From positions 1 to 45,498 of the IMG/VR virus record IMGVR_UViG_3300022602_004802: a stretch of DNA of 45,498 bases. One strand, 5' to 3'. This DNA comes from a virus. A model generated the notes under the pieces. It saw only the letters and a program-made list of their open reading frames with translations. It was not told the DNA's origin and did not search any database. The first letter of the stretch is position 1. Each line of letters opens with the position of its first letter. Positions 21,056 through 21,161 of the stretch are shown here, piece after piece. The position numbers and the translations under genes are program-made.

Positions 21056-21161
21056 GGAGGCGGTGCTTCCAAAGTCTTCGGGTAGGTTACCCAATGTTTT
21101 ATCGGAACGGTGTTCCAATGTCAGAAGCGTAGGTTACGCAAATCATTGATGCGGTGCATCA
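21056..21161 (+). promoter_or_regulatory. Array of five GGT-triloop hairpins in the capsid leader
   Basis: Five hairpins follow one another: GGAGGC-GGT-GCTTCC (21056-21070), GGGTA-GGT-TACCC (21080-21092), GGAAC-GGT-GTTCC (21104-21116), GCGTA-GGT-TACGC (21127-21139) and GATGC-GGT-GCATC (21148-21160). All stems differ yet pair fully (one G-T pair in the first), while the GGT loop is constant. The loop-closing pair alternates C-G, A-T, C-G, A-T, C-G. Starts are 21 to 24 bases apart. A 12-codon frame (21094-21132) runs through it and is probably chance. Confidence 0.85.

Follow-up and report, generated by a model that had tools for sequence, protein, structure and literature searches.

Five consecutive hairpins, each with a different stem and all with the same GGT triloop, occupy the leader of the major capsid protein gene in the window, which is the whole 45.5 kb virus record (45,498 nucleotides). 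The array is conserved across the capsid family as a covarying structure, not as a sequence. On balance, we favor the view that it acts in cis as a leader RNA of the capsid operon and that its loops dock one RNA-binding factor that governs the expression of capsid-assembly genes. The data point to an undescribed RNA switch controlling the amount of shell protein. The features of the region are as follows.

20087–20926, + strand: probable scaffold protein gene, 279 aa, directly 5' of the array region; the function is assigned from position and conservation
20975–20996, + strand: intrinsic terminator ending the upstream operon
21022–21051, + strand: Bacteroidota-type promoter TTTG-N18-TACATTTG, with TTTG at 21022 and TAnnTTTG at 21044–21051
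21031–21045, + strand: 15-base palindrome TAGTAAAAATTACTA in the promoter spacer, a member of a dispersed set
21056–21070, + strand: hairpin 1, GGAGGC-GGT-GCTTCC, 6 pairs including one G-U, closing pair C-G; the array is orthologous in L002 and Pan5
21080–21092, + strand: hairpin 2, GGGTA-GGT-TACCC, 5 pairs, closing pair A-T
21104–21116, + strand: hairpin 3, GGAAC-GGT-GTTCC, 5 pairs, closing pair C-G
21127–21139, + strand: hairpin 4, GCGTA-GGT-TACGC, 5 pairs, closing pair A-T
21147–21161, + strand: hairpin 5, TGATGC-GGT-GCATCA, 6 pairs, closing pair C-G; its 3' end lies 26 bases before the capsid start codon
21188–22240, + strand: major capsid protein gene (ATG at 21188), 350 aa, predicted HK97-like fold, phrog_7231 (head and packaging)
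22268–25405, + strand: remainder of the capsid operon, with homologues of the Pan5 cement, adaptor and tail terminator proteins and one unknown

The capsid protein is homologous to the annotated major capsid protein of phage Pan5, and the top Foldseek matches of its AlphaFold model (mean pLDDT 76, pTM 0.78) are all phage capsids. A tyrosine integrase gene (PF00589) lies at the end of the window (44359–45498, − strand), so the phage is probably temperate.

The earlier note, made from the letters of this DNA, had described five GGT-triloop hairpins on five different stems at 21056–21161, spaced by 21–24 bases and with alternating closing pairs. The positions are as claimed, the loop centres lie 23, 24, 23 and 21 bases apart, and the closing pairs run C-G, A-T, C-G, A-T, C-G. 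All five stems pair as described, although the G-U in stem 1 means that they are not strictly Watson–Crick, and the constant GGT loop holds for the window (5/5) but not for the family, in which the motif widens to N-G-Y. When the whole window was shuffled 100 times with dinucleotides preserved, the number of same-triloop hairpins in the largest cluster was usually 2 and never above 3 (reached in 3 of the 100), as compared to the 5 observed. The single-strand fold of 21040–21180 is no more stable than that of shuffles (z −0.09), and its minimum-energy structure re-pairs hairpin 4. Since folding energy does not set the leader apart from shuffled sequence, the case is built on the recurrence of one loop, the pairing of the stems and conservation, and not on energy.

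The TTTG/TAnnTTTG promoter pattern has 6 matches in the window versus 4.4 expected and is weak taken alone; many relatives carry a comparable TAnnTTTR 9–14 bases 5' of their arrays. The prediction of the earlier note that the transcript starts at the first hairpin holds on the promoter reading, which would place the start at or just before hairpin 1. The spacer palindrome TAGTAAAAATTACTA is a probable operator. The corresponding 15-base palindrome, TAGTAAAWWTTACTA, occurs in about 10 copies in the window (at 7207, 13829, 16851, 20924, 21031, 25476, 25824, 30268, 35793 and 35905), with 30 strand matches at up to 3 mismatches versus 5 expected, and lies twice within the spacer of TTTG/TAnnTTTG promoters; the set resembles operator sites for a regulator that acts throughout the phage. 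Downstream, a strong terminator (25431–25462), probably the end of the capsid operon, is followed by a second promoter with the same palindrome, which opens a new unit. The leader of this second promoter contains no hairpin array, which ties the array to the capsid gene and not to the promoter class.

The location of the array directly 3' of a promoter would also suit put- or nut-like antitermination, in which the nascent RNA modifies RNA polymerase for late-operon transcription. We consider this very unlikely: the terminator at 25431–25462 and the new promoter close the capsid operon, so that readthrough seems unneeded, and put and nut sites lack repeated identical loops. A nut (boxA/boxB) site in particular was rejected, as the window array has only triloops and no GNRA-like boxB pentaloop.

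To follow the array across the capsid family, relatives were gathered by protein similarity, except for L035/L039, which was found through its hairpins and is hence a biased example. Most of the phages and prophages of Bacteroidota that we examined have an array before the homologous capsid gene, even at a protein identity as low as about 26%. Each of four contigs at 84% capsid identity carries five GGT hairpins with differing stems, Pan5 (L063/L126, ON968456; capsid 48% identical) carries four, and more distant viral contigs and prophages mostly carry two to four. The loops are GGT in most leaders, TGT and CGT in L005 and L112, GGC in L097, and CGC and TGC in L077, L080 and L111. Loops are not uniform in every phage, as L035 combines TGT, GGT and AGT, and L116 GGT and GGC. 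One lineage (L095, L098, L099, L119, L121 and L122) has loops of 6–10 bases with AAGRY, most commonly AAGGTAC; L122 also shows GAU/GAC loops, and L120 has the tetraloops GGTT/GGTA. Among the relatives examined, no array was recognisable in L081, L082, the Polaribacter phages including P12002L, tant8-1 and LS06, and L109 is ambiguous.

Two further observations concern these leaders. Pan5 is recorded as a phage of Pseudanabaena, a cyanobacterium, but Bacteroidota phages are its nearest company in both the capsid module and the leader array; its host assignment may be worth a check. In L077, L111 and L112, extra conserved stems (TTAAAGG..CCTTTAA and AAACAGA..TCTGTTT) lie around and 5' of the triloop hairpins, and CATCC recurs in an internal loop, together possibly forming a second motif.

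In total, 33 leaders contain 57 N-G-Y hairpins with stems of at least 4 pairs, as compared to 1.4 expected and a maximum of 5 in 200 shuffles. Since the N-G-Y class was defined after inspection, all triloops were counted too: of the 59 perfect ones, 53 belong to the N-G-Y class, 38 are GGT and one is GGA, and 47 of the 53 N-G-Y triloops are N-G-U. The closing pairs of the 57 hairpins are C-G (24), T-A (21) and A-T (12), never G-C, and the loop-centre distances concentrate at 22–23 bases. We then aligned eight three-hairpin units, with the spacers set by hand to 10 bases and the stems untouched. All 120 cells are paired, both sides change in 14 of the 15 pairs, and the covariation score is 1.071 versus 0.280 after shuffling; shifting the partners by 1–3 columns abolishes the signal. 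Because the units were excised around hairpins, part of the paired percentage is built in, which does not apply to the double changes.

The loops evolve in a different manner from the stems. On the capsid tree, the leaders cluster by loop type. L112 differs from L111, L077 and L080, to which its capsid is about 91% identical, by U to C at position 3 in all three loops, and the accompanying stem changes are compensated. Such a concerted loop change with compensated stems is the pattern expected if an outside factor reads the loops. The claim of the earlier note of an RNA structure with a putative loop reader is, at the level of comparative sequence, well supported by the homologous leaders, the covarying stems and the loops, which are near-constant within a phage and lineage-specific between phages. 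The absence of homologous leaders with paired stems, which the note had named as grounds for abandoning its claim, is not what we found.

A hairpin-rich 5' end might instead slow the decay of the capsid mRNA passively, with the triloop kept constant because it folds well and with no reader at all. The array does begin at the predicted 5' end, an outer stem on several first hairpins (L088, L094, L096 and L097) would tie up that end, and of all virion products the capsid is presumably made in the largest amount. A passive stabiliser does not readily explain why the loop type shifts in concert and by lineage, including the switch to AAGRY octaloops, why the stable GNRA and UUCG tetraloops are unused, or why overall leader stability is at chance level, and we therefore regard it as unlikely.

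The distribution of the array also bears on docking of a dedicated factor. A covariance model found one site per phage record searched, the capsid leader. Its matches in 396 Chitinophagaceae genomes were the capsid leaders of two prophages and a single repeat locus, and in 395 sampled Bacteroidota genomes it found zero arrays, a result of limited weight as stricter filters can miss weak matches. Across 300 kb from two host contigs, most GGT hairpins fall within coding regions, the prophage leaders being the exception. This location and the zero count in the 395 genomes led us to reject host genes as carriers of the array. A single-hairpin pattern scan hit 55 contigs and yielded, beyond known homologues, a new array at L035/L039 only, the others being lone chance matches.

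L089 (positions 1–250), a contig end of a Chitinophagaceae metagenome-assembled genome, has tandem REP-like repeats with palindromes such as GGGGC-GGT-GCCCC, which share the C-GGT-G hairpin with the phage arrays. These repeats are what speaks for DNA-level or mobile palindromes, whether REP-like or packaging or replication signals, in place of an RNA function. We give that explanation hardly any credence, given that the array occurs once per phage, on a fixed strand and at a fixed site before one gene family, with unconserved stem sequences. Membership in a REP-like class, which calls for a dispersed palindrome of conserved sequence, was likewise rejected, as the stems differ and each phage record has one array, and CRISPR-repeat mimicry was rejected because the stems differ.

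If the factor is encoded by the phage, it is probably among the genes common to all, or almost all, of the five array-bearing phages compared (Pan5, G004, G005 and two prophages). These are virion structural genes, for instance those for the capsid, the adaptor, the tail terminator and the large tail proteins. Homologues of the portal, scaffold and cement proteins were undetected in one of the two prophages at the sensitivity used. A host-encoded reader is possible.

Similar hairpins precede scaffold genes in proteobacterial phages. The starting locus, L159, was among the 80 matches listed from a viral-contig scan for two adjacent GGT hairpins, and has two well-paired hairpins 5' of a scaffold gene; its relatives were picked by protein similarity. 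Two N-G-U hairpins with 10-base spacing are present in Pseudoxanthomonas phage PW916, Stenotrophomonas phage AXL_3, Pseudomonas phages Ab26 and KP1, Xanthomonas phage DoCa1, Rhodobacter phage RcThunderbird and E. coli phage FtMidnight, the last with two AGU hairpins. The second hairpin of these leaders touches or contains the ribosome-binding site. Stenotrophomonas phage L281 has two hairpins at closer spacing, and JeffCo, PMBT14 and Langgrundblatt2 have one each; among the scaffold leaders of these relatives, those of Shy, JWX, K1G, a Vibrio phage and Lucius have no hairpin. The scaffold leaders show the same 23-base period as the Bacteroidota arrays. They amount to 16 hairpins in 14 leaders versus 0.45 expected (maximum 3 in 500 shuffles), counts that are non-independent, given the kinship among these phages and the detection of L159 through its hairpins. 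Direct tabulation of the pairs revealed double changes in most stems. Some loops of the second hairpin may be shaped by the Shine–Dalgarno sequence (GGAGT); pairing of GGU with the anti-Shine–Dalgarno as a general explanation was rejected, as the TGT, CGC and GAU loops do not fit. The position of these hairpins, inside the operon and beside the start codon, further argues against antitermination.

The scaffold families of the two groups have no detectable homology (hhalign probability 25), so that a common phage-encoded reader is unsupported by sequence. A conserved host reader would account for the same loops in two phyla, and one candidate is threonyl-tRNA synthetase (ThrRS), which recognises G35 and U36, the last two bases of the anticodon. 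The N-G-U loops would then copy the tRNA-Thr anticodon (GGU, UGU, CGU) and be bound by the host enzyme as in the thrS operator of E. coli. The G35/U36 reading fits N-G-U with a free first base, the type of 47 of the 53 N-G-Y triloops, and the U-GGU-A of the L094 clade resembles U33-anticodon-A37. Anticodon mimicry is nevertheless improbable in our judgement. The N-G-U expected at every thrS-type site gives way to N-G-C throughout the arrays of L077, L080 and L097 and to GAU/GAC in L122, and is mixed with other types in L116; moreover, the loops are triloops and not seven-base anticodon loops, and a link between threonine and the capsid is not known.

We therefore return to the docking of one RNA-binding factor as the preferred reading. 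The N-G-Y loops would serve as repeated docking sites, and several bound copies could set the amount of capsid protein through protection of the 5' end, altered translation or both. Since the hairpins of the Bacteroidota leaders stop at least 24 bases short of the start codon, an effect on mRNA stability or ribosome access is likelier than direct blocking; the start codon is left uncovered, and feedback repression is not obvious there. The second proteobacterial hairpin, which coincides with the ribosome-binding site in front of the scaffold gene, has the look of a translational operator, and its geometry suggests repression when bound. The most economical putative reader is a capsid or scaffold protein that feeds back on its own synthesis. 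More tentatively, and as a conjecture that we would not yet lean on, the code of tandem N-G-U triloop hairpins with its 23-base period may be common to tailed dsDNA phages of at least two phyla. Capsid or scaffold synthesis would then be metered either by a protein of capsid assembly or by a host protein of universal occurrence, for example an aminoacyl-tRNA synthetase, and the loop letter would co-evolve with its reader.

Translational operators for capsid proteins are textbook knowledge in RNA phages, and the balance of shell and scaffold protein in tailed DNA phages is little understood, for which the arrays give a concrete starting point. A leader of two to five copies of a single loop has been kept while the capsid family diverged deeply, and it has an echo in front of proteobacterial scaffold genes. 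If the reader is found, the arrays would represent a modular RNA–protein tag with naturally diverged loop specificity.

Searches against Rfam 15 gave no match above the gathering threshold in the window or in 20 homologous loci, a weak Rfam scan of 20920–21300 returned chance-level matches only, and searches of the open-access literature for triloops, leaders of capsid genes, autoregulation and hairpins before scaffold genes turned up no account of such an array. Among known systems, the iron-responsive element and the Roquin constitutive decay element are likewise short stems read by proteins through an AGU pseudotriloop or a pyrimidine-purine-pyrimidine triloop, but they are eukaryotic single elements and not arrays. 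The iron-responsive element further requires a sixth base in the loop and a bulged C five pairs below; it was rejected here because the CAGUGN hexaloop and the bulged C are absent, the triloops sitting on continuous stems without a bulge. The thrS operator of E. coli also places hairpins, with anticodon-like loops, 5' of a start codon, whereas the present leaders have triloops, include N-G-C and GAY variants and have no synthetase gene downstream. Leaders of the CsrA/RsmA type resemble the array in that several hairpins offer a protein the same short motif in their loops. The motif there is GGA, in contrast to the N-G-Y triloop found only before capsid-assembly genes in our survey, and the assignment was rejected on the loop (GGA in 1 of 59, N-G-Y in 53 of 59). 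The scaffolding protein of P22 is autoregulated post-transcriptionally and provides a parallel among tailed phages for the control of capsid-assembly genes, although it belongs to another phage family and is not known to have a hairpin array. The coat operators of MS2/R17 and PP7 share the short hairpin and the virion gene, and the placement of the proteobacterial ribosome-binding site within a hairpin is compatible with their geometry; here, unlike there, the phages are tailed dsDNA phages with one to five hairpins, near-constant triloops and variable stems. The array is not classed with any of these families, since either their loop features failed or membership hinges on binding of the reader; by analogy with them, we propose that it acts in the manner of a multi-site leader or of an operator of translation.
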